Origin: Modestobacter italicus
Lineage (GTDB): Bacteria > Actinomycetota > Actinomycetes > Mycobacteriales > Geodermatophilaceae
Length of the DNA stretch: 64,000 nt
Assembly (NCBI RefSeq): GCF_000306785.1
Contig: NC_017955.1
Span: 5,332,001-5,396,000 of the forward strand
Direction of reading: 5' to 3'
Of the stretch, positions 25,677 through 42,719 are shown one piece after another. The position numbers and the translations under genes were made by a program. Under the pieces are notes generated by a model, which saw nothing but the letters and a program-made list of their open reading frames with translations, was not told the DNA's origin and did not search any database. Within the stretch, counting starts at the first letter, position 1; every line of letters starts with the position of its first letter.

Positions 25677-27121
25677 CCCGTCCTCGCCGGGGGCGGACCG
25701 ACCGGGGGCGGCGCGGCGGGCAGCAGCGCCCGGACGTCCTTTGCGCGCAGCGCGCCGAGCCAGAGCCCGGCGCCGTAGGCGAGGTCCTCGAGGCGGCGTC
25801 CCGCGGCGGCGGTGGGCAGGTCGACCTCGTGCCGGTGCGGCCACCAGCCGTCGACGGCGTCGGCCACCGCGACCCCGGCGACCAGCCACCGGGCGCGGCG
25901 GCTGACCAGCGCGGCCGCGACCGCGAGCGGCCAGTGGTGCCGGGTGACCGCGCGGGCCAGGGTCCGGCCGGACGCTGCCGTCCCGCGCAGCACCAGCCCG
26001 GCCGCCAGCCGCAGCGGCAGCGGGTCGCCGGGCGCGGCGAGCCGGCGGGCCAGCTGCTCCGACGCCCGGCCGAGCACCCCGGCGGCGGCCAGCACGCCCA
26101 GCGGCGACCCGGTGAGCGCCAGGGCCCAGGCCGCGGCCGACCACGGCGAGATCACCACCGGGGCGACCGCCGCGCCGTGCCGCTGGGCCAGCAGCGCCGC
26201 CCCGGTGCCGTAGAACGCGCGGCGGCGCAGCCAGTCGGCCGGCGCCACCCGGTGGTCGTGCGCCACCCGGGCCGCCGGCTCGTAGCGCACCCGCCAGCCG
26301 GCCCCGGCCAGCCGCCAGACCAGGTCGACGTCCTCGGCGACCCGCATCGTCTCGTCGAACCCGGCGCCCAGCGCCGCCCGCCGGGCCAGCAGCGCGGCGC
26401 TGGGCACGTAGGAGACCACCGTCAGCGGCGCGACCCGCGCCGCCGCCGTCCCCATGTCCAGCGCACTGCTCACCCCCTCGTACCGCGCCACCCACGCGGA
26501 GGCCCTCGCACCGCCGAGGGCGGTGATCCGGGGGGCGACCAGGGCCAGCCGGGGGTCGGCCAGGTGCCGGGCCAGCTGCTCCAGCCAGCCGGGCTCCGGC
26601 ACGCAGTCGGAGTCGACGAAGGCGACCAGCGGGGTGCCGGCGGCACGCAGGCCGGCGTTGCGGGCGGCGGCCGGGCCGCGGGCCTCCTCGTGGCGGAGCA
26701 GCCGGGCGCCGGCCGCCACCGCGGCGACCTCGGACGGTTCCGCGGAACCGTCGTCGACCACGACCACGGGGCAACCCGCCGTCCCCGGGTCGGCGCGGAG
26801 GGCGGCCAGCAGCCGGGCCAGCCCGTCGGTGCGGTCCCGGACCGGGACGACGACGGTCACCGCGGGGAGCGGCGCCGGCGGCAGGTCGGGGTCGGCGACG
26901 CCGGTGTCCAGCAGCCGCGCGGCCAGCGCCGCGGTGCGGGCGTCGGTCACCTCGAGCCGGTCGCCGTCCAGCAGGGTCCGGGCGGCGGGCGCGAGCCGCA
27001 GCATCCGGAACGGGGACCCGCCGAGCAGCGTCGTCCCGCCGTCCCGGCGCTGGGTCCCCGGTGCCAGCCGGACGGCGAACCCGTCGGGCAGCCGGTCCGG
27101 GGGCGGCGCGGGGACCGTCAT
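25658..27121 (-). CDS. mftF: Mycofactocin glycosyltransferase MftF
   Basis: This 487-residue protein matches MftF. A roughly 80-residue N-terminal part precedes a GT2 glycosyltransferase domain (VTVVVPVRDRTDGLARLLAAL, VVVDDGS, ARNAGLRAAGTPLVAFVDSDCVPEPGWL as DxD region, EDVDLVWRLAGAGWRVRYEP), and hydrophobic segments near the C-terminus probably anchor it in the membrane. MftF adds beta-1,4-glucose units to the mycofactocin core. Its ATG overlaps the stop of the isochorismatase-like gene (ATGA), so it is third in an operon after an NCS1 permease. It is 6 kb away from mftE, unlike the contiguous mycobacterial cluster. Confidence 0.92.
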   Translation of the reverse strand: MTVPAPPPDRLPDGFAVRLAPGTQRRDGGTTLLGGSPFRMLRLAPAARTLLDGDRLEVTDARTAALAARLLDTGVADPDLPPAPLPAVTVVVPVRDRTDGLARLLAALRADPGTAGCPVVVVDDGSAEPSEVAAVAAGARLLRHEEARGPAAARNAGLRAAGTPLVAFVDSDCVPEPGWLEQLARHLADPRLALVAPRITALGGARASAWVARYEGVSSALDMGTAAARVAPLTVVSYVPSAALLARRAALGAGFDETMRVAEDVDLVWRLAGAGWRVRYEPAARVAHDHRVAPADWLRRRAFYGTGAALLAQRHGAAVAPVVISPWSAAAWALALTGSPLGVLAAAGVLGRASEQLARRLAAPGDPLPLRLAAGLVLRGTAASGRTLARAVTRHHWPLAVAAALVSRRARWLVAGVAVADAVDGWWPHRHEVDLPTAAAGRRLEDLAYGAGLWLGALRAKDVRALLPAAPPPVGPPPARTGQGPTR

Positions 27122-33295: not shown

Positions 33296-33332
33296 CCGGG
33301 CGGCTCCCGGGGTCAGCCCCGGAGCCGCCCGG
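33296..33332. terminator. Bidirectional terminator between the siderophore genes and mftE
   Basis: Arms 33296-33312 and 33317-33332 pair almost perfectly (one bulged C) around a TCAG loop. The right arm is inside the last codons of mftE. Confidence 0.7.
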
Positions 33333-34005
33333 TCTCGTCCACCGTCCAGCCCGCCACCGCGGCGGTCATCCGGTCGCCGAGGGCCGCCAGCAGCTCCGCC
33401 CCCTCCGCCGCCGACGCGCCGGTCGGGTCCCCGAGGACGCCGTCCGGGCTCACCGCCCGCACCCCCTCGGCCCGCAGCCGGGGCAGCAGCTCGCTGATCG
33501 GCGCCGTCTCCCCCGCCGCGGCCAGCGCCTCGCGCACCGCTCCCGGTTCCACGTGCAACAGCAGGGACGTCTCGGTCCGCCCGGCGTGCGCGTCCCCGCC
33601 GGGCACGCCGCACGGGAACCAGGCGACGTCCCGGCCCTCGGCCCGCAGCAGCGGCACCGCGGTGCGCAGCGCGTCGAGGTTGCCGCCGTGCCCGTTGACC
33701 ACCAGCAGCCGGCCGGCCCAGCGCCCGGCCGAGCGGCCGTACTCGACCAGCAGCGCGCTCAGCGCCTCGGTCCCGATCGAGATCGTGCCGGGGAAGCCCT
33801 CGTGCTCGCCGCTGGCGCCGTAGGCGAGGGCCGGGGCCAGCACCGCGTCGTCCAGCCGGGGGACGACGGCCTCCGCGACGGCCTGCGCCACGACGGTGTC
33901 GGTGGCCATCGGCAGGTGCCGGCCGTGCTGCTCCACCGACCCCAGCGGGACGACGACCAGCGGTGCGCCGGCGACCTCGGGCCAGGTGGCGTGGGTCAGC
34001 CTCAC
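33313..34005 (-). CDS. mftE: Mycofactocin peptidase MftE (creatininase family)
   Basis: The 230-residue protein has creatininase-fold metal motifs: VPLGSVEQHGRHLPMATD (Glu, His and Asp ligands, about 20-37), NGHGGNLD and HAGRTETS. MftE removes the last two residues (Val-Tyr) from the MftC-modified precursor, releasing the AHDP core. The GTG at 34005 begins VRLTHATWPEV. In mycobacteria mftE follows mftD on the same strand; here it is on the opposite strand, alone, separated from mftD by a PPOX-like gene. Confidence 0.93.
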   Translation of the reverse strand: MRLTHATWPEVAGAPLVVVPLGSVEQHGRHLPMATDTVVAQAVAEAVVPRLDDAVLAPALAYGASGEHEGFPGTISIGTEALSALLVEYGRSAGRWAGRLLVVNGHGGNLDALRTAVPLLRAEGRDVAWFPCGVPGGDAHAGRTETSLLLHVEPGAVREALAAAGETAPISELLPRLRAEGVRAVSPDGVLGDPTGASAAEGAELLAALGDRMTAAVAGWTVDETGRLRG

Positions 34006-34065
34006 GACCGCGACCCTGCCAGACCCGGTGTGTGGCCCCCCACCCGCTGGGGCACCACCGACCCC

Positions 34066-34548: not shown

Positions 34549-34589
34549 CCTCGAGCGAGGATCGTGATCCACGCCACGACGCGGTAACG

Positions 34590-34604
34590 TGGCACTCAGT
34601 GCCA
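34590..34604. promoter_or_regulatory. Candidate MftR operator upstream of mftD
   Basis: The perfect inverted repeat TGGCACTCAGTGCCA lies 63 bases before the mftD start and is followed at once by GCGTCGGCC. A near copy followed by the same GCGTCGGCC is in front of mftA (41779-41793). MftR is the obvious candidate binder. Confidence 0.6.
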
Positions 34605-34666
34605 GCGTCGGCCGCGCGAGCGTCCGGTGGCGGCCGGCCGACGTCGTCGAGGAGCAGGAGCACCCA

Positions 34667-35890
34667 GTGGCCAACCCGTGGTTCGAGTCCGTGGCAGAAG
34701 CGCAGCGCCGGGCGAAGAAGCGGCTGCCCAAGGGCGTGTACGGCGCACTGGTGGCCGGCTCCGAGCGCGGGCTGACCGTCGACGACAACACCGCCGCCTT
34801 CGGTGAGCTCGGCTTCGCCCCGCACACCGCCGGGCTGGCCAACGACAAGCAGATGGCGACCCGGGTCATGGGCCAGGACATCGCGCTCCCGGTGCTGATC
34901 AGCCCCACCGGCGTGCAGGCCGTGCACCCCGACGGCGAGGTGGCCGTCGCCCGCGCCGCCGCCGCCCGCGGCACCGCGATGGGCCTGTCGTCGATGGCGA
35001 GCAAGCCGATGGAGGAGGTCATCGCGGCCAACCCGAAGACGTTCTTCCAGCTGTACTGGGTCGGCGACCGCGACGTCATGGCCGCCAAGGTCGAGCGCGC
35101 CCGCAACGCCGGCGCCGCCGGGCTGATCGCCACCCTGGACTGGTCGTTCTCCTACGGCCGCGACTGGGGCAGCCCGTTCATCCCGGAGCGGATCAACCTG
35201 GAGGCGGTGCGCCGGTACGCCCCCCAGGTGGCCCTCAAGCCCAGCTGGCTGTGGGACTTCGCCAAGACCAAGAAGCTGCCCGACCTCACCGTGCCGAACA
35301 TGGTCGCCACCCCCGGCGACAAGGCCCCCACCTTCTTCGAGGCCTACGGCCAGTGGATGCAGTCCCCGATGCCGAGCTGGGACGACGTCGCCTGGCTGCG
35401 CGAGCTGTGGGGCGCCGACCGGCCGTTCATGCTCAAGGGCGTCATGCGGGTCGACGACGCGCACCGCGCCGTCGACGCCGGGGTCACCGCGATCTCGGTG
35501 TCCAACCACGGCGGCAACAACCTCGACGGGACCCCGGCCTCGATCCGGGCCCTGCCGGCGGTGGCCGCGGCCGTCGGCGACCAGGTCGAGGTGCTGCTGG
35601 ACGGCGGCATCCGCCGCGGCAGCGACGTCGCGAAGGCCCTGGCGCTGGGCGCCAAGGCGGTCATGATCGGCCGCGCCTACCTGTGGGGCCTCGCCGCCAA
35701 CGGCCAGGCCGGGGTGGAGAACGTGCTCGACCTGCTGCGCGACGGCCTGGGCTCGGCGCTGATCGGCCTCGGCCACACCTCCATCGACCAGTTCGGCCCC
35801 GGCGACCTGGTCATCCCGCCGGGCTTCGAGCGCCACCTGGGCACCGCCGGCGCCGACGCCCCCCTCGGCAACCCCGCCTCCAGCGCCTGA
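34667..35890 (+). CDS. mftD: Pre-mycofactocin synthase MftD (FMN-dependent alpha-hydroxyacid oxidase family)
   Basis: The 407-residue protein starts MANPWFESVAEAQRRAKKRLPKGVYGALVAGSERG, the characteristic MftD beginning, and follows the lactate-oxidase/FMN-dependent dehydrogenase fold: LISPTGVQAVHPDGEVAVARAAA, VSNHGGNNLDGTPASIRALP with the active-site His, and LLDGGIRRGSDVAKALALGAKAVMIGRAYLWG (phosphate-binding). MftD oxidatively deaminates AHDP to give the redox-active alpha-keto amide. The GTG at 34667 has a GGAG upstream; the longer in-frame ORF would include the operator. It is monocistronic between the operator and a strong terminator. Confidence 0.94.
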   Translation: MANPWFESVAEAQRRAKKRLPKGVYGALVAGSERGLTVDDNTAAFGELGFAPHTAGLANDKQMATRVMGQDIALPVLISPTGVQAVHPDGEVAVARAAAARGTAMGLSSMASKPMEEVIAANPKTFFQLYWVGDRDVMAAKVERARNAGAAGLIATLDWSFSYGRDWGSPFIPERINLEAVRRYAPQVALKPSWLWDFAKTKKLPDLTVPNMVATPGDKAPTFFEAYGQWMQSPMPSWDDVAWLRELWGADRPFMLKGVMRVDDAHRAVDAGVTAISVSNHGGNNLDGTPASIRALPAVAAAVGDQVEVLLDGGIRRGSDVAKALALGAKAVMIGRAYLWGLAANGQAGVENVLDLLRDGLGSALIGLGHTSIDQFGPGDLVIPPGFERHLGTAGADAPLGNPASSA

Positions 35891-35896
35891 CCGAGC

Positions 35897-35938
35897 AGCC
35901 CTCTTCCGCCGAGAGCGCGCTCTTGCCGGAAGAGGGCT
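35897..35938. terminator. Bidirectional terminator between mftD and the VWA gene
   Basis: Arms AGCCCTCTTCCG (35897-35908) and CGGAAGAGGGCT (35927-35938) are perfectly complementary, and the space between holds a second palindrome AGAGCGCGCTCT. The stop codon of the convergent VWA gene lies in the right arm. Confidence 0.8.
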
Positions 35939-36869
35939 ACTCCGCGAAGACGGCGGTGAGGGCGGCGGCGACGTCGCGGTGGTCGCGGACCAGCCGCAGC
36001 CGGCCCCGACCGGCGCGGGCCAGGTCGCGGCCCAGCTCGACGTCGTCCTCGCCCGAGGTGTCCAGCAGCACGTCCAGCCGGGGCAGCCGGGCCGCGGTGA
36101 GCCGCGGGTCGGGCCCGGCGTTGTGCACGCAGTCGCTGAGCAGCAGCACCCGCGCGTCCCGGGCCGGCACTCCGGCCAGCTGCCGGGCGGCCGTCTCCAG
36201 CGCGAAGGTCACGTTGGTCAGCCCCTGCGTCGGCACCCGCAGCAGCAGGTCGAGCACGGCCAGCGGGGCGATCTGCTCCCCGCGCCGCACCAGCACCGCG
36301 GCGTCGGACCAGAAGGCGACGACGGCGAGGGAGTCCCGGGCGAGCTCGCCGGCCAGCGCGCCCACCGTGGCCGCCGCCGTCCGGACCCGCTCCCCCTTCA
36401 TCGACCCGGACACGTCGACCACCAGGACGACGGAGCGCCGCTGGCGGACCCGTTCCCGGACGAGGATCTCGGTCTCCTCCGGGTAGGGGTTGCCGGCCAG
36501 CGCCTCGAGCGTGCGTTCCAGGTCCAGCTCGTCCGATCCGCCGGCCCACGGCAGGGTGGCCAGCTCGCCGACCCCGCGCCGCGACCGCCGGTCCCGTGGC
36601 GGCCGGGGGACCGCGAGCCGGCGGGCGATCTGCCGGGCGCGGGCACGGGTGAGCTGGTCGACCGAGCTCTCGGTCTGCAGGTCGGCCAGCGGGATCAGGT
36701 CGGCCGGCTCGTCCGTCGTCCCCGACGCCGTGCCCCCGGGCCGGGACGGACCGGTCCGGTCCCGCCGGCGGTCACCCGAGGACAGCGCCAGGCCGCCCCC
36801 GCCCCGCGCCGGCTCGTAGAGCGAGGGCTGCTCGGTGAGCTGCTTGGGCCGGCGCCGGAGCGGGCGCAT
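35937..36869 (-). CDS. VWA domain protein paired with a MoxR ATPase
   Basis: The 310-residue protein has a basic, low-complexity N-terminus of about 80 residues and a von Willebrand factor A domain with a complete MIDAS start, VVDVSGSM (about 148-155), later TNVTF and LLLSDC. It is soluble. VWA proteins next to MoxR-type AAA+ ATPases act together as metal-insertion or assembly chaperones, as in the CoxD/CoxE and RavA/ViaA pairs. It lies downstream of the MoxR gene inside the mycofactocin region; a shifted paralogue of it lies at 55040-55979. Confidence 0.85.
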   Translation of the reverse strand: MRPLRRRPKQLTEQPSLYEPARGGGGLALSSGDRRRDRTGPSRPGGTASGTTDEPADLIPLADLQTESSVDQLTRARARQIARRLAVPRPPRDRRSRRGVGELATLPWAGGSDELDLERTLEALAGNPYPEETEILVRERVRQRRSVVLVVDVSGSMKGERVRTAAATVGALAGELARDSLAVVAFWSDAAVLVRRGEQIAPLAVLDLLLRVPTQGLTNVTFALETAARQLAGVPARDARVLLLSDCVHNAGPDPRLTAARLPRLDVLLDTSGEDDVELGRDLARAGRGRLRLVRDHRDVAAALTAVFAE

Positions 36870-36929
36870 CCCCCGGGGCGCCCCGGTGCGGTCGCGCCGG
36901 GTGAGCGGGGAGTCGGCCTCGACGGCTCT

Positions 36930-37847
36930 TCAACCGGGCTCGGCCGCGGCCGGCTGGAGCAGGAAGTGGTCCTCCCAGATCTCCCGGAGCACCGCCTCCG
37001 GGCTGGACTCGAGCGTCTCGTCGAGGAAGATCCGCCCGGACAGCGCCAGCAGGACGGCGTCCAGCACCACGTCGGTGTACTCCTCCGGCAGCCCGCGCGG
37101 CGGGGCGACCGACGGCTCGTCGGGCAGCGGCACCCCCCGCATCGCGGCCAGCTGGGCGGCGACCAGCGCGGTGTCGATGGCGCCGCGGACGCTGCTGCCC
37201 TGCCGGACGTCGTCGCGCTCGCGGGTCGCCCGGGTCAGCGCGACGGCGTCGGCGACCAGCCGCGGCGACTCCACGCCGGTGCGCCGGCCGACGATGCCGC
37301 GCTCGGCCTCGGCGTCCTGGTAGCCGATCGCCAGCCGGCACAGCCGGTCGTGCACCGAGGTCGACAGCCGCGTCGTCCCGACGTTGTCGTAGGGGTTCAT
37401 CGAGGCGATCACCCGGAAGCTGGGCAGCGCCTCGACGACACCGACCCGGGGCACCGCGATCCGGCGCTCGGCCATGGCGGTGAGCAGCGTGTTCAGGGTG
37501 TCCTCGGGCGCCCGGTTGAACTCCTCGACGTAGAGGAACCCGCCCGCGCGCATCGCCTCGACCAGCGGGCCGGGGACGAAGTTGTCCGGGGAGTAGTCCT
37601 CGCGGAGCACCCGCGCCGGGTCGTGGTGCCCGACCAGCCGGGTGGGCGTGAGGTCGGCGTTGCCCTCGACGAAGACCAGCGGGATGCCCCACTCCGCGGT
37701 GATCGAGCGCAGCAGCGTGGACTTGGAGGTGCCCGGCGGCCCCTCGAGCAGGACGTCGCGGCCGGCGGCGACCGCGGCCAGCAGCAGGTCCAGCTCCCGG
37801 GCGCGGCCCACCAGGTGGCGGGCGACCCGGGCGCGGACGGCGCGCAC
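36930..37847 (-). CDS. MoxR-like AAA+ ATPase
   Basis: A 305-residue AAA+ protein. The Walker A is GPPGTSKST (about 36-44), Walker B GFLYVEEFNRAPEDTLNTLL, sensor 1 VIASMNPYDNVGT and the arginine-finger region DRLCRLAIGY. It is a MoxR-type chaperone ATPase that probably acts with the downstream VWA protein. The start is uncertain: the GTG at 37847 has no ribosome site, while GAGGAGGG stands 4 bases before an in-frame CTG at 37926-37928 with no ATG, GTG or TTG between. The true start may be that CTG, adding 27 residues. Confidence 0.88.
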   Translation of the reverse strand: MRAVRARVARHLVGRARELDLLLAAVAAGRDVLLEGPPGTSKSTLLRSITAEWGIPLVFVEGNADLTPTRLVGHHDPARVLREDYSPDNFVPGPLVEAMRAGGFLYVEEFNRAPEDTLNTLLTAMAERRIAVPRVGVVEALPSFRVIASMNPYDNVGTTRLSTSVHDRLCRLAIGYQDAEAERGIVGRRTGVESPRLVADAVALTRATRERDDVRQGSSVRGAIDTALVAAQLAAMRGVPLPDEPSVAPPRGLPEEYTDVVLDAVLLALSGRIFLDETLESSPEAVLREIWEDHFLLQPAAAEPG

Positions 37848-37940
37848 CGAGTCGCCGTCGTCGCCGGTGACCCGGCTGCCGGTGACCAGCGGGTCGTCGC
37901 CGGTGGAGTGCGAGATGTGCTCGTTCAGGACGCCCTCCTC

Positions 37941-37985
37941 GGGCTCTCGGTACCGAGTGCACCGTGCTCCCGGTACCGAGAGCCC
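37941..37985. terminator. Perfect 15-bp hairpin between the SDR and moxR genes
   Basis: GGGCTCTCGGTACCG (37941-37955) and CGGTACCGAGAGCCC (37971-37985) are exact inverted copies around a 15-base loop containing GTGCAC. It begins 10 bases after the SDR stop on the minus strand and ends just before the GAGGAGG ribosome site of moxR. It could be a terminator, an attenuator or an operator. Confidence 0.65.
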
Positions 37986-37994
37986 GGGGGTCGG

Positions 37995-38831
37995 CTACTT
38001 GACGGTGTACCCGGCGTCGACGGGGAGCGTCACGCCGGTGATGTAGCGCGCCTCGTCGGAGACGAGGAACAGGATCGCGTTGGAGATGTCGACCGGCTCC
38101 ACCCACGGCACCGGCAGCGCGTTGGTCGACTGGAAGATCGGCTCGGCCTTCTCCCGGCTGGGTGCCGGGTCGTCGGGCGCGAACAGCCCCCAGGTCTTCT
38201 GGTTCTGGATCATCACCGTGTCGACCCCGGTCGGGTGCACGGAGTTGACCCGGATCGAGTGCCCGGCGAACTCGTTGGCCAGGGTGCGCATGATCCCCAC
38301 GACGCCGTGCTTGGCCGCCGTGTAGTGGATGGTGTTCGGCGTCCCCTTGAGCCCCGCCGTGGAGCTGGTGAGCACGATCGCCCCACCCCGGCCGCCCTCG
38401 ATCAGGTGCGGCAGCGCGACCTTGCAGGTGTTCCAGACGCCGGTGAGGTTGATGTCGATCATCTCCCGCCAGGCGTCGTCGGTGACCTCCAGCGCCGGCT
38501 GGATCTCGAAGACCCCGGCGTTGCCCAGCACGATGTCCAGCCGGCCGAGCTGGGCGACCCCCTCGTCGACGGCGGCCTGGAGCGCGGCGGTGTCCCGGAC
38601 GTCGGCCTTGGTGGCGACGATCCGCCGGTCCAGCGCCTCGACCTGGCGCACCGTCTCGGCCAGGTCGTCCTCGGTGGCCGGCGGGTACATCTCGATCGAC
38701 TCGACCGGTCCGGCGATGTCGACGGCGATGATGTCGGCGCCCTCCTGCGCCAGCCGCAGCGCGTGGCTGCGGCCCTGGCTCCGGGCGGCACCGGTGATGA
38801 GGGCGACCTTGCCCTCGACCCGCCCGGTCAT
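37995..38831 (-). CDS. Mycofactocin-coupled SDR family oxidoreductase 2
   Basis: The 278-residue protein has the signature of mycofactocin-coupled SDRs: [37 protein letters not shown], a long insertion before [20 protein letters not shown], then [14 protein letters not shown] and [10 protein letters not shown] (catalytic Tyr/Lys). These enzymes keep NAD(H) bound and need mycofactocin to re-oxidise it, so they are expected to oxidise alcohols in vivo. Its ATG overlaps the stop of the paralogous upstream SDR (ATGA). A 15-bp hairpin follows. Confidence 0.92.
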
Positions 38832-39649
38832 CGGACGGTGAAGCCGGCGTCGACCGGCAGTGTCACGCCGGTGACGTACCGGCCCTCGTCGCTGACCAGG
38901 AAGGCGATCGCGTTGGAGATGTCGACCGCCTCGATGATCTCGACCGGCATCAGGTTCGCCAGCATCGACGCGGCGTCCGGGTTGGCCTCGATCCACGTCC
39001 CGATCACCTCGTTCAGGACCATCGGCGTCGAGACCCCCGTGGGATGGACGGTGTTGACCCGGATGTTGTGCGGCGCCAGCCAGTGGGCGAAGCTGCGCAT
39101 CAGCCCGACGACGCCGTGCTTGGCCGCCGCGTACCCCGAGGTGGCCCCGCTGCCGTCACCACCACGGCCGGTCAGGCCCTGGGTCGAGCTGGTCAGCACG
39201 ATCGCGCCGCCGTCCCCCTGCTCGATCATGCGCGGCGCGGCGACGTGCACGGTGTTGTAGACGCCGGTGAGGTTGACCCCGATGACCTCGTCCCAGGTCT
39301 TGTAGGTGTCCGGCTCCGGGCCGCCCTGCTGGGCGATGCCGGCGTTGGCCAGCACGATGTCCACCCGACCGAGCTCGGCGACGCCCGCGTCGAGCGCGGC
39401 CTGCATCGCGGCGGCGTCCCGGACGTCGGCCTGGCTGGTCACGATCCGCCGGTCGAGCGCCTCGACCTGCCGCGCCGTCTCCGCCAGGTCCTCCGGTGTC
39501 GCCATCGGGTAGGCGACCGTCTCCAGCTGCGCACACAGGTCCAGCGCGATGATGTCGGCGCCCTCCTGCGCCAACCGGACGGCGTGGCTGCGGCCCTGAC
39601 CGCGGGCCGCACCGGTGATGAAGGCGACCTTGCCCTCGAGCTTGCCCAT
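38828..39649 (-). CDS. Mycofactocin-coupled SDR family oxidoreductase 1
   Basis: The 273-residue paralogue of the next gene has [70 protein letters not shown] and [13 protein letters not shown]. The SQGRSH/GQGRSH loop and insertion are hallmarks of the mycofactocin-coupled SDR subfamily. The two genes are translationally coupled. The 167 bp upstream (39650-39816) hold two small hairpins (39680-39700, 39705-39728) and a TCACGTGA palindrome. Confidence 0.92.
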
Positions 39650-39679
39650 GACCTTCTCCTCGCTGGGACATCACGTGAT

Positions 39680-39728
39680 GGCGCACAGGGGTGGTGCGCC
39701 CCAGCAGCCCTGGCGCCGGGCAGGGCTG
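39680..39728. terminator. Pair of small hairpins after the mftC-side transcript
   Basis: GGCGCAC/GTGCGCC (39680-39700) and CAGCCCT/AGGGCTG (39705-39728) lie downstream of the 47-residue ORF on the minus strand and upstream of the SDR operon. They probably end the mftABC transcript. Confidence 0.5.
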
Positions 39729-39816
39729 ATGGGGACGGGTCAGCGGACCGGGAGCGCGCGTGCTGTTCCTGCGGTCCCGCTGCGGACGTGCCTGGACGCG
39801 GCCGGACCACCCGGGG

Positions 39817-39960
39817 TCAGACCGTCGGGGCCCCTTCCGGGGCGGCGGCCGCCGGCCGCCCGGCTGGCGGGTGCCAGGCCGCCGGGCCGCGCAGGTACCA
39901 GGGGCGGGACAGCTGGAGGGAGACCAGGGCGGGGAGCACGATGCAGTCGACGACGGTCAC
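39817..39960 (-). CDS. Unrecognised 47-residue protein downstream of mftC
   Basis: The GTG at 39960 is preceded by GGGAGGGGAG, one of the strongest ribosome sites in the region, and lies 50 bases after the mftC stop on the same strand. The product begins VTVVDCIVLPALVSLQLSR with one Cys and a mildly hydrophobic stretch, then PWYLRGPAAWHPP and a Pro/Ala-rich tail. I do not recognise it, and it is not one of the named Mft proteins. It could be a small accessory of the mycofactocin operon or a remnant. Confidence 0.5.
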   Translation of the reverse strand: MTVVDCIVLPALVSLQLSRPWYLRGPAAWHPPAGRPAAAAPEGAPTV

Positions 39961-40010
39961 GTGCTCCCCTCCCTGGTCCGGTCGGTCGGTGGGTCGGCGG
40001 GTCGGTGGGC

Positions 40011-41237
40011 TCAGCTCAGCTGCAGGCCGGCCAGCGGCGACTCGTCGCAGATCTTGGCCGGGATGGCCGGCATGCCCAGCAGCGTCGGCTGGCCGCGGAC
40101 CGGGCCCTTGTGCGAGTGGTCGATGTGGCTCTTCGGGGTGACCAGCTCCAGGTCGCGGGCGGCCAGGGCGGTCTCCCCGTAGCCCTGCACGCACTCCGGG
40201 TCCGGTCCGTCCAGCGGCAGGCCGGTGAAGAACTTGGCCGCCATGCAGCCACCGCGGCAGGAGTCGAAGTGCTGGCACTTCGTGCAGGCGCCACCGGTCT
40301 GCGGGTTGCGCAGGTCGGCGAACAGCTCGCTGTGCTGCCACACCTGCTGGAAGCCGCCGGGCGAGCGCACGTTGCCGGCGAGGAACTGCTCGTGGATGGC
40401 GAACGGGCAGGCGTAGACGTCGCCGACCGGGTCGATCAGGCACACCACCCGGCCGGCGCCGCACAGGTTCAGCCCGGGCAGGGCCTCGCCGAGGGCGGAC
40501 AGGTGGAAGAACGAGTCGCCGGTGAGCACCTGGTCGCCGTTGGCCAGCAGCCACTGGTAGAGGTCGCGCTGCTGCGCCTGGGTCGGGTGCAGCCGGTCCC
40601 AGACGTCGGCGCCGCGGCCGGACGGGCGGAACCGGGTGATCCGCAGCTGGGCGCCGTAGCGGTCGGTGAGCGCCTTGAACTCGTCGAGCTGCCCGGCGTT
40701 CTCCCGGGTGACGACGACGGAGACCTTGAAGTCCTTCATCCCGGCCTCGGCCAGGTTCTCCAATGCGCGGGTGGCGGTGGCGAACGACCCGGTGCCGCGG
40801 ACGGCGTCGTTCACCTCGGCGGTGGCGCCGTCCAGGGAGATCTGCACGTCGACGTAGTCGGTGCGGGCCAGCTGCTGGGCGCGGGCCCGGTCCAGCTTGA
40901 TCCCGTTGGTGGAGAACTTGACCCCGACGTCGTGGCCGATCGCGTAGTCCAGCAGGTGCCAGAAGTCCGGCCGGACGGTCGGCTCACCGCCACCGACGTT
41001 GACGTAGAAGACCTGCATCCGCTGCAGCTCGTCGATGACCGCCTCGGCCTCGGCGGTGCTCAGCTCGCGCGGGTCCCGCCGTCCGGAGGAGGACAGGCAG
41101 TGCACGCAGGCGAGGTTGCAGGCGTAGGTGAGCTCCCAGGTCAGGCAGATGGGTGCGTCCAGGCCGTACTCGAACTGGTCGATGAGCTTCCCGCCGGTGG
41201 GGCGCTCGGTGGGGCGGGAGGGCAGGACGGCGGTCAC
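40011..41237 (-). CDS. mftC: Mycofactocin radical SAM maturase MftC
   Basis: The 408-residue protein has the radical SAM Cys motif at residues 40, 44 and 47 (CNLACVHC), the GGEPTVRPDF SAM-binding motif and a C-terminal SPASM domain with Cys residues for auxiliary clusters (CGAGRVVCLIDPVGDVYACPF, then CTKCQHFDSCRGGC). MftC decarboxylates the C-terminal Tyr of MftA and then cross-links it to Val. The GTG at 41237 overlaps the mftB stop (GTGA). The length is near that of mycobacterial MftC. Confidence 0.96.
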   Translation of the reverse strand: MTAVLPSRPTERPTGGKLIDQFEYGLDAPICLTWELTYACNLACVHCLSSSGRRDPRELSTAEAEAVIDELQRMQVFYVNVGGGEPTVRPDFWHLLDYAIGHDVGVKFSTNGIKLDRARAQQLARTDYVDVQISLDGATAEVNDAVRGTGSFATATRALENLAEAGMKDFKVSVVVTRENAGQLDEFKALTDRYGAQLRITRFRPSGRGADVWDRLHPTQAQQRDLYQWLLANGDQVLTGDSFFHLSALGEALPGLNLCGAGRVVCLIDPVGDVYACPFAIHEQFLAGNVRSPGGFQQVWQHSELFADLRNPQTGGACTKCQHFDSCRGGCMAAKFFTGLPLDGPDPECVQGYGETALAARDLELVTPKSHIDHSHKGPVRGQPTLLGMPAIPAKICDESPLAGLQLS

Positions 41238-41626
41238 GCTGACTCCTCGGTGCGGCGTTGGATCATCTGCGAGCGGGCGAGCGTGGCCAGTGCGGTGACG
41301 TACGCCGGGTGCTGCGCCTCGGGCACCGCGCAGGCGACCAGGGTGCTCGGCACGTCGGGGTGGGCCTCGAGGGCCGTCACGACCGCGACCAGCGGCTTGG
41401 ACTTCAGGAACGACAGCTTCCGGTTGCCGAAGTGGTAGACGAGCGCGCCGAACGGCTCCGGGCGCAGCGCCACCGACGGGGACTTCCGCCAGGGCAGCGA
41501 CGGGTCGAAGGGCACCTCGTCAGCGGGGATGTCGGCCGGGACGGTCACCGCTCCCGCGGCCGGCTGCCCGGCCGCGGGAGCGGGAGCGGGGTCGGTCAAC
41601 GGAGCGTCGCTCAGTAGACGCCGCAC
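41234..41626 (-). CDS. mftB: Mycofactocin chaperone MftB
   Basis: The 130-residue ORF ends in the MftB domain (PWRKSPSVALRPEPFGALVYHFGNRKLSFLKSKPLVAVVTAL, then YVTALATLARSQMIQRR). MftB is a PqqD-like peptide-binding protein that presents MftA to MftC. The GTG at 41626 overlaps the end of mftA by 16 bp; in-frame GTGs at 41548 (with GGGAG nearby) and 41512 would remove the Ala/Pro-rich first part, which is not conserved in the family. The exact start is therefore open. Confidence 0.93.
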   Translation of the reverse strand: MRRLLSDAPLTDPAPAPAAGQPAAGAVTVPADIPADEVPFDPSLPWRKSPSVALRPEPFGALVYHFGNRKLSFLKSKPLVAVVTALEAHPDVPSTLVACAVPEAQHPAYVTALATLARSQMIQRRTEESA

Positions 41627-41730
41627 ATGCCGTCGATGGAGACCTCCTCGACCAGCGAGTCCTCGACGAGCACCTCCTCGGTGGCGGCCGGGGTCTCGGT
41701 GCGGGTCTCGTCCTGCGTCGTCTCGGGCAC
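41611..41730 (-). CDS. mftA: Mycofactocin precursor peptide MftA
   Basis: The 39-residue peptide begins VPETTQDETRTETP and ends with the invariant tail IDGMCGVY; the final Val-Tyr is the part converted into the cofactor core. The acidic middle (EEVLVEDSLVEEVS) is the leader recognised by MftB and MftC. The GTG at 41730 has GGAGG six bases upstream. It is first in the mftABC unit. Confidence 0.95.
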   Translation of the reverse strand: MPETTQDETRTETPAATEEVLVEDSLVEEVSIDGMCGVY

Positions 41731-41771
41731 GGTGCCTCCGGAGTGATCTGGTTCACGAACGGACGAGGCCG

Positions 41772-41800
41772 ACGCTAGTGACACCGAGTGCCACCGGCAA
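41772..41800 (-). promoter_or_regulatory. mftA promoter with the candidate MftR operator in its spacer
   Basis: On the minus strand TTGCCG (41795-41800) and TAGCGT (41772-41777) are spaced by exactly 17 bp and resemble -35 and -10 boxes. The spacer contains the near-palindrome TGGCACTCGGTGTCA (41779-41793), matching the mftD element at 34590-34604. Repressor binding there would block the polymerase. The -10 lies about 41 bases before the mftA start. Confidence 0.6.
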
Positions 41801-41904
41801 GAGGGAGTTCCGGACGTCCAGGACCTGCACAGCGAGCACCCCGGCCGCTCCCAGACCGGCAGCCGATGCTCGGTCGGGCACCCACCAGACCCGGAGGTCC
41901 CCGT

Positions 41905-42009
41905 GCTCACCGTCGCCGTGCTCGTCGTCTTCTTCGCCCTGCTCACCGTCGCCGACGTGCTCCCCGGCCAGGCCGGCGCACCGGGGCTGGTGGCGCCGGT
42001 CCGCTGAGC
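41905..42009 (+). CDS. 34-residue single-membrane-segment protein between mftA and mftR
   Basis: The GTG at 41905 follows a perfect GGAGG with normal spacing. The product starts VLTVAVLVVFFALLTVADVL, one hydrophobic helix, and ends with a short Gly/Ala/Pro tail. It is on the mftR strand, 71 bases before the mftR ATG, so the two may share a transcript. Third codon positions are nearly all G or C, as in real genes of this genome. I recognise no family. It fills much of the otherwise 350-bp mftA-mftR gap; the rest (41801-41904) holds nothing else I can name. Confidence 0.6.
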
Positions 42010-42080: not shown

Positions 42081-42719
42081 ATGACCCAGACAGTGGTCGC
42101 CCCCGACGCGCGCGAGGAGACCCGCGCCCGGATCGAGCAGGCCGCCCTCGACCTCTTCACCGACCAGGGCTTCGAGCAGGTGACCATCGACGAGATCGCC
42201 GAGGCCGCCGGCATCAGCCGCCGGACGTTCTTCCGCTACGTGAGCGCCAAGGCCGACGCCGTGTGGGGAGACTTCGACGCCCACGTCGTCCGGCTGGAGG
42301 GGATGCTCGCCGCCACGGCCAACGACCAGTCGGTGCTGGCCTCGATCTGCGCGGCGTACGTCGAGGTGAACGACTACGCGCTCGAGGACCTGCCGATGCT
42401 GCGGCAGCGGATGCGGCTGATCCTCACCGAGCCGGCGCTGCAGGCGCACTCCCAGGTCCGGTACGCCGCCGTCGACCGGGTCGTCGCCGCGCACGTCGCC
42501 CGCCGCACCGGGGTCACCCCGGACGCGCTCGTCCCGCGGCTGGTGGCCACCAGCACCCGCGCGGCGGCGACGACGGCCTTCGAGGTCTGGCTGGCCGACG
42601 GGCAGAGCTCGCTGGGCACGGTGCTGCACCAGGCCTTCGACGAGCTGGCCGCCGGGTTCCCGTCGCTGCGGGGGCAGCCCGGGGGCGCGACCGGTCTCCC
42701 GGCCGCGCCCCCGGGCTGA
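42081..42719 (+). CDS. mftR: Mycofactocin system TetR family regulator MftR
   Basis: The 212-residue TetR protein has the helix-turn-helix VTIDEIAEAAGISRRTFFRYVSAKADAVW (about 34-62), where RTFFRYV is typical of MftR. It is divergent from mftABC, the usual place of mftR. Characterised MftR represses the mft operon and is released by long-chain acyl-CoA. Candidate operators are the palindromes upstream of mftA and mftD. The C-terminal codons are part of a terminator hairpin. Confidence 0.92.
   Translation: MTQTVVAPDAREETRARIEQAALDLFTDQGFEQVTIDEIAEAAGISRRTFFRYVSAKADAVWGDFDAHVVRLEGMLAATANDQSVLASICAAYVEVNDYALEDLPMLRQRMRLILTEPALQAHSQVRYAAVDRVVAAHVARRTGVTPDALVPRLVATSTRAAATTAFEVWLADGQSSLGTVLHQAFDELAAGFPSLRGQPGGATGLPAAPPG
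42675..42718. terminator. Terminator hairpin built into the 3' end of mftR
   Basis: Perfect 15-bp arms CAGCCCGGGGGCGCG (42675-42689) and CGCGCCCCCGGGCTG (42704-42718) end at the mftR stop codon and separate it from the convergent membrane protein gene. Confidence 0.7.

Follow-up and report, generated by a model that had tools for sequence, protein, structure and literature searches.

The closest described system to the one studied here is that of Mycobacterium smegmatis, for which Mendauletova and Latham (PMC8728441) report that the TetR-family protein MftR is a repressor whose effectors are long-chain acyl-CoAs. According to the same study, MftR gives a footprint on TCCATTCTGGCACTCGATGCCATATAT, from -79 to -53 of mftA, a palindrome T-N2-GGCA-N5-TGCC-N2-A was derived from 83 mycobacterial sequences, and MftR overproduction reduces all mycofactocin (mft) biosynthetic transcripts, mftD being the most strongly affected (nearly 80-fold). 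They also cite work on the M. tuberculosis homologue in which the expression of nearly 50 genes was affected and a site upstream of mftA was found by ChIP-seq (chromatin immunoprecipitation sequencing), so wider MftR targets may already be on record. In this work we have analyzed a window of 64,000 nucleotides (positions 5,332,001 to 5,396,000 of NC_017955.1) from Modestobacter italicus, a member of the Geodermatophilaceae, in which mftD lies apart from mftABC and similar palindromes precede mftD and mftA. Judging from the sequence, both palindromes are very probably MftR operators, through which the unit led by mftABC and the separate mftD unit would be repressed together.

The palindrome of mftD, TGGCACTCAGTGCCA, is found in a promoter region of 118 bp, between the end of a pyridoxamine-oxidase-like gene (34548) and mftD, and ends 62 bp upstream of the mftD GTG (34667); its arms (first and last six bases) pair at all six positions around a TCA centre. 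That of mftA, TGGCACTCGGTGTCA, spans -63 to -49, ends 48 bp upstream of the mftA GTG (41730) and has five of six positions paired around a TCG centre. Both lie where the initial annotation had placed them (Table 1), and the mftA palindrome does fill the 17-bp spacer between TTGCCG and TAGCGT, as described there. We have also found TAACGT abutting the mftD palindrome, with its last T being the first base of the palindrome, an element absent from that annotation. The proposal that GCGTCGGCC is a tail common to both sites did not hold: it follows the palindrome directly at mftD and only after CTA at mftA, out of register, and among the matches listed it was not seen kept in the mftD promoters of relatives. 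We rejected it as an element, and the common tail looks fortuitous.

The core of the M. smegmatis footprint, TGGCACTCGATGCCA, is identical to TGGCACTCAGTGCCA in 13 of 15 bases and likewise to TGGCACTCGGTGTCA in 13 of 15, and GGCA-N5-TGCC is exact at mftD and conserved in seven of eight bases at mftA. The M. smegmatis operator (Omft) and the mftA site are alike in lying upstream of mftA, within ∼50–80 bp of its start, and in having a closely matching core. They differ in that Omft is described as one operator for the mft gene cluster, whereas here mftD has its own copy, in the absence here of the outer T and A bases, and in the presence of further copies upstream of some dehydrogenase genes. 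The stretch ISRRTFFRY of the M. italicus MftR, which we take to be the recognition helix of its DNA-binding domain, is close to ISRRTLFRY, IARRTLFRY, and IARRTVFRY of MftR proteins from genomes of the same order taken as mycobacteria. FasR (NF053731) is another TetR-family protein that responds to acyl-CoA; the M. italicus MftR matches its model weakly (35 bits, cut-off 330) and belongs to a different equivalog. In the titles, abstract openings, and passages of the literature among the matches listed, we saw no account of an MftR operator at mftD or at genes for mycofactocin dehydrogenases, or of an MftR from Geodermatophilaceae. The kind of element is already published, and what we describe is a further MftR-type operator.

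The initial annotation had named presence upstream of mftA and mftD orthologues as support for an operator, and this is what we found. In an initial look at 40 of 114 other mftD loci the palindrome preceded mftD in 37. We then scanned 112 genomes of the family, taken to be Geodermatophilaceae from the nearest named MftD loci (101 with MftD above cut-off, in 115 copies), for exact TGRCACYCNGTGYCA sites, with no mismatch, and detected 243 in 96 of them; in a subset of 108 genomes the pattern matched 233 times and its reversed control 16 times. An exact site precedes 97 of the 115 mftD copies, 17–154 bp (median 62) ahead of the start of the MftD match, and the palindrome was also collected from 72 distinct mftA promoters. 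TGGCACTCAGTGCCA itself is the sequence of 66 of 99 mftD sites. Classes were assigned to 230 of the 243 sites (99 to mftD by coordinates, the rest by locus; 13 were left out, namely 12 whose loci were not retrieved and the mftA site of the window), and 201 of these precede mycofactocin genes: mftD (100), mftA/mftR (70), alcohol dehydrogenases (18), mycofactocin short-chain dehydrogenases/reductases (SDRs) or the MftR paralogue (12), and moxR (1). The remainder comprises a serine hydrolase gene (7) and other genes, with no recognised mycofactocin gene (22). At loci L238 and L251, a site of its own accompanies a moxR or SDR gene that resembles those of the window (86% and 88% identity).

Among the 22 other sites, in two related members of the genus (L218, L295) an exact site is found 44 bp upstream of what is apparently the same acyl-CoA dehydrogenase-like gene, called by eye in the first and by models all under cut-off in the second, and a further site (L309) has an acyl-CoA ligase-like gene downstream, also under cut-off. 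The first two are notable because acyl-CoAs are the MftR effectors in M. smegmatis, but the three are too few to weigh.

The strongest computational sign that MftR reads the mftD site is its co-occurrence with it. Taking an E-value of 1e-30 or better as presence in 108 sampled genomes (G010, G061, G062, and G096 were left out), MftR is present in 88, above the curated cut-off in 73 and just under it (215–224 bits) in 15. Any exact site occurs in all 88 genomes with MftR and in 4 of the 20 in which none was found. Among the 98 genomes with MftD, the mftD site is present in 86 of 86 with MftR versus 3 of 12 where it was not found (Fisher p 1.4e-10, kinship ignored), and it is absent from all six genomes without detected MftR whose completeness is 90% or more. 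These data also bear on the possibility that an MftR paralogue (G000:C1:2239573-2240106) or another TetR protein is the main reader of the mftD palindrome, so that mftA and mftD would be under different proteins. This paralogue adjoins its own copy of the operator, located between a pair of TIGR03971 SDR genes and the divergent TetR gene (L031); it reaches 168.2 bits against TIGR03968, under the cut-off of 224.9, and was classed as a paralogue on this basis. It has ISRRTFFRY in common with MftR, and the centre of the mftD sites is TCA in 88 of 99 whereas the centres of the mftA sites are more variable, which could mark different readers. However, paralogue-like matches (146–197 bits, under cut-off) are found in only 16 of the 108 genomes, in comparison to 88 for MftR, which accompanies the mftD site in 86. 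We consider a separate reader improbable.

The position of the palindromes relative to the putative promoter elements suggests how MftR could act. In the 72 mftA promoters, which were chosen for carrying the palindrome, TTG lies within -9 to -4 of it in all cases (exactly at -7 to -5 in 47) and TANNNT starts 0–2 bp after it, also in all 72, with a spacer of 17 or 18 in 71. In 49 of 69 palindromic mftD promoters TANNNT shares its last T with the start of the palindrome; the arrangement is otherwise in 20. For SDR promoters (n = 12) TANNNT is found 0–1 bp after the palindrome in seven, 19 bp before it in three, and not at all in two; for alcohol dehydrogenase promoters (n = 18) it is found 17–31 bp after in nine, 14–20 bp before in six, and in none of the remaining three. 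The layouts of mftA, mftD, and most SDR promoters would fit steric exclusion of the polymerase, and the others say less. We propose that MftR recognises TGRCAC-NNN-GTGYCA as a dimer, which at mftA would sit between the putative -35 and -10 elements, and at mftD across the end of the putative -10 element and the likely start site, in both cases excluding RNA polymerase. Promoter occlusion would thereby repress the unit headed by mftABC together with that of the separate mftD. If the analogy with M. smegmatis holds, MftR would be released by long-chain acyl-CoA. Some genes for mycofactocin-coupled dehydrogenases have the same candidate operator upstream, and in this genome one such set lies beside the MftR paralogue. 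The direction of control in Geodermatophilaceae is taken from the same analogy. That the sites are real while MftR activates or otherwise does not repress we regard as very improbable, as M. smegmatis MftR is a repressor (PMC8728441) and a site in the promoter spacer or at -10/+1 favours occlusion.

Upstream of the -10 element of mftD promoters (for example, L141–L168), TGTGGCG...GTCTC recurs, by eye, ∼15–35 bp before the palindrome. It is not a standard -35 element and is possibly an activator site.

How informative the motif is depends on its stringency. With up to three mismatches there are 11 matches in the window versus a shuffle mean of 15.9, so it is no commoner than chance; with up to one mismatch the genome has 17 per strand, below the 32 per strand of the reversed-pattern control; and another scan at up to three mismatches gave a small excess (342 and 307 matches versus 273 and 288 in the controls). 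As these loose counts are barely or not above controls, only the strict form is informative. Strict TGRCACNNNGTGYCA occurs at five places in the 5.58-Mb genome, against ∼0.9 expected from base composition, and four of them precede mycofactocin-related genes: mftA, mftD, the SDR pair with the MftR paralogue (site at G000:C1:2239460), and, with the site at G000:C1:390970 (L005), an NDMA (N,N-dimethyl-p-nitrosoaniline)-dependent alcohol dehydrogenase (TIGR03989, 458 bits, cut-off 440). That the palindromes are chance products of 75% GC DNA, in which the loose pattern is as common as chance, or RNA hairpins such as the terminator of an upstream gene, has a very low probability, given that exact sites are present in 96 of 112 genomes and recur at mftD and mftA, their excess over the reversed pattern, and the conserved -35/-10 register.

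The fifth strict place (G000:C1:318150, L003) has TGGCACCCCGTGCCA before a serine hydrolase gene. There are seven such sites, all in the genus of M. italicus, with no TANNNT in register and no mycofactocin link, and they were counted as non-mycofactocin; the best model of the hydrolase is AcmB, with 171 bits versus a cut-off of 550. They are perhaps operators of another TetR protein. A different palindrome, TGGCACAAACTGCCA, has two identical copies in the M. italicus genome (L036 and L038, position 1501 in each), one 55 bp before a TIGR03971 SDR gene and the other near genes that look, by eye, like those of an MFS-type transporter and of a TetR-family regulator; its core is different and it was excluded from the set.

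Beyond the family, MftC is present in 53 of the 396 genomes surveyed across the phylum, and we sampled 30 mftC loci from these. Whenever mftR is part of the 4-kb locus (14 cases, that of M. italicus included) there is a match of at least 11/14 within 1.4 kb upstream of mftC, in comparison to 2 of the 16 loci without it, both well upstream of mftA. The operators of mftA in Amycolatopsis and Subtercola are framed by TTCCATT on one side and a TTAT- or TTAG-type element on the other, resembling the M. smegmatis footprint. With respect to mftD, we kept 80 loci, 55 of them non-family, and in these mftD immediately follows mftC in 29 and is apart from it in 26. The initial annotation spoke of units split by rearrangement; mftD is indeed apart from mftABC in M. 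italicus, but a direction of change is not shown by these arrangements. Where mftCD is contiguous, a site before mftD was found in 0 of 29 at 12/14 or better and in 1 of 29 at 11, so that the strong effect on mftD in M. smegmatis is not accounted for here by an internal copy. Where mftD is apart, the site is present in 5 of 26 at 12/14 or better and in 8 of 26 at 11/14 or better (Acidiferrimicrobium, two Amycolatopsis, Compostimonas, Pseudonocardia, Desertimonas, Subtercola, and Saccharopolyspora), versus 0.0018 and 0.018, respectively, under a Markov null (200 bp, 2200 resamples); another separate mftD (L093) has TGACACTCAGTGTCA close upstream. We searched 20 of these 26 genomes for MftR and 17 have it above cut-off, including all eight with the site; so do 9 of the 12 without it. 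In Acidiferrimicrobium and Desertimonas MftR is near mftD. The tendency of separate mftD genes to have their own operator is real, although it is not a rule.

In a Jatrophihabitans metagenome-assembled genome with MftR (L386, L396), a different palindrome, CGTCAGTCAGTGACG, lies between TTGTTT and ATAACGT upstream of mftA, and a change of operator specificity is possible there.

Several observations weigh against MftR operators at both units. Neither palindrome keeps the outer T and A of the published motif, and at mftA TGTC stands in place of TGCC. An exact site is lacking before 18 of the 115 mftD copies, nine of which are extra copies in genomes where MftR is present and a different mftD copy does have the site, the other nine being in genomes where no MftR was found. 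Three genomes have the mftD site with no MftR found; they are 70–88% complete. Two of the eight non-family genomes (L340 and L364, Acidiferrimicrobium and Desertimonas) have no good match at mftA (8 and 10 of 14). Furthermore, the scan pattern was picked after the two sites were known, the relatedness of the genomes makes the Fisher p-values overstate independence, and the effector is assumed. All this considered, the core identity, the presence at orthologues, and the way the site tracks MftR support the initial annotation in its candidate MftR operator for the separate mft units.

Genes were assigned with NCBIfam (TIGR) and Pfam (PF) models, and mftR, mftA, mftB, mftC, mftD, mftE, and two mycofactocin-coupled SDRs are above the cut-offs of the NCBIfam ones (Table 1). 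The first annotated mft gene beyond the putative mftA operator is mftR, in divergent orientation. Between mftA and mftR there is a 34-codon open reading frame (41903–42007, + strand), VLTVAVLVVFFALLTVADVLPGQAGAPGLVAPVR, probably a small membrane peptide, with copies of 76–91% identity in six mftA/mftR loci of the genus (L137, L294, L297, L300, L301, and L308).

Table 1. Putative regulatory elements and mycofactocin-related genes of the window (positions of the window unless otherwise indicated)
Feature	Position	Strand	Basis
Putative MftR operator of mftD, TGGCACTCAGTGCCA	34590..34604	+	Palindrome; exact site upstream of 97/115 family mftD
Putative mftD -10 hexamer, TAACGT	34585..34590	+	TANNNT in same register in 49/69 palindromic mftD promoters
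Putative MftR operator of mftA, TGGCACTCGGTGTCA	41779..41793	-	72 distinct mftA promoter contexts with TGRCACNNNGTGYCA palindrome
Putative mftA -35 hexamer, TTGCCG	41795..41800	-	TTG near palindrome in 72/72
Putative mftA -10 hexamer, TAGCGT	41772..41777	-	TANNNT just 3' of palindrome in 72/72
mftR, TetR-family repressor, proposed binder	42081..42719	+	TIGR03968, 246.1 bits, cut-off 224.9; PF17754 MftR C-terminal domain
mftA, mycofactocin precursor peptide	41611..41730	-	TIGR03969, 47.5 bits, cut-off 25
mftB	41234..41614	-	TIGR03967; start codon approximate
mftC, radical SAM maturase	40011..41237	-	TIGR03962
Mycofactocin-coupled SDR	38828..39649	-	TIGR03971
Mycofactocin-coupled SDR	37995..38840	-	TIGR03971; start codon approximate
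MoxR-like AAA ATPase	36930..37847	-	PF07728
vWA-domain protein	35937..36869	-	PF13519
mftD, pre-mycofactocin synthase	34667..35890	+	TIGR03966, 679 bits, cut-off 470.85
mftE	33313..34020	-	TIGR03964; start codon approximate
mftF, glycosyltransferase (extent of model match)	25715..27067	-	TIGR03965, G000:C1:5357715-5359067, 486 bits, cut-off 280

Finally, the most interesting point of this work is that MftR-type operators would extend to an mftD located on its own and to candidate client dehydrogenases. We are modestly inclined to think that MftR and its close paralogues form in Geodermatophilaceae a genome-wide regulon that couples mycofactocin synthesis (mftABC, mftD) to the dehydrogenases using this cofactor, and that across Actinomycetota a separate mftD tends to have an operator of its own. 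Such a regulon could be tested, and it concerns a cofactor about whose conditions of use little is known. Searching sequences for the motif can thus point to candidate enzymes that depend on mycofactocin, as well as to the regulators of these enzymes.

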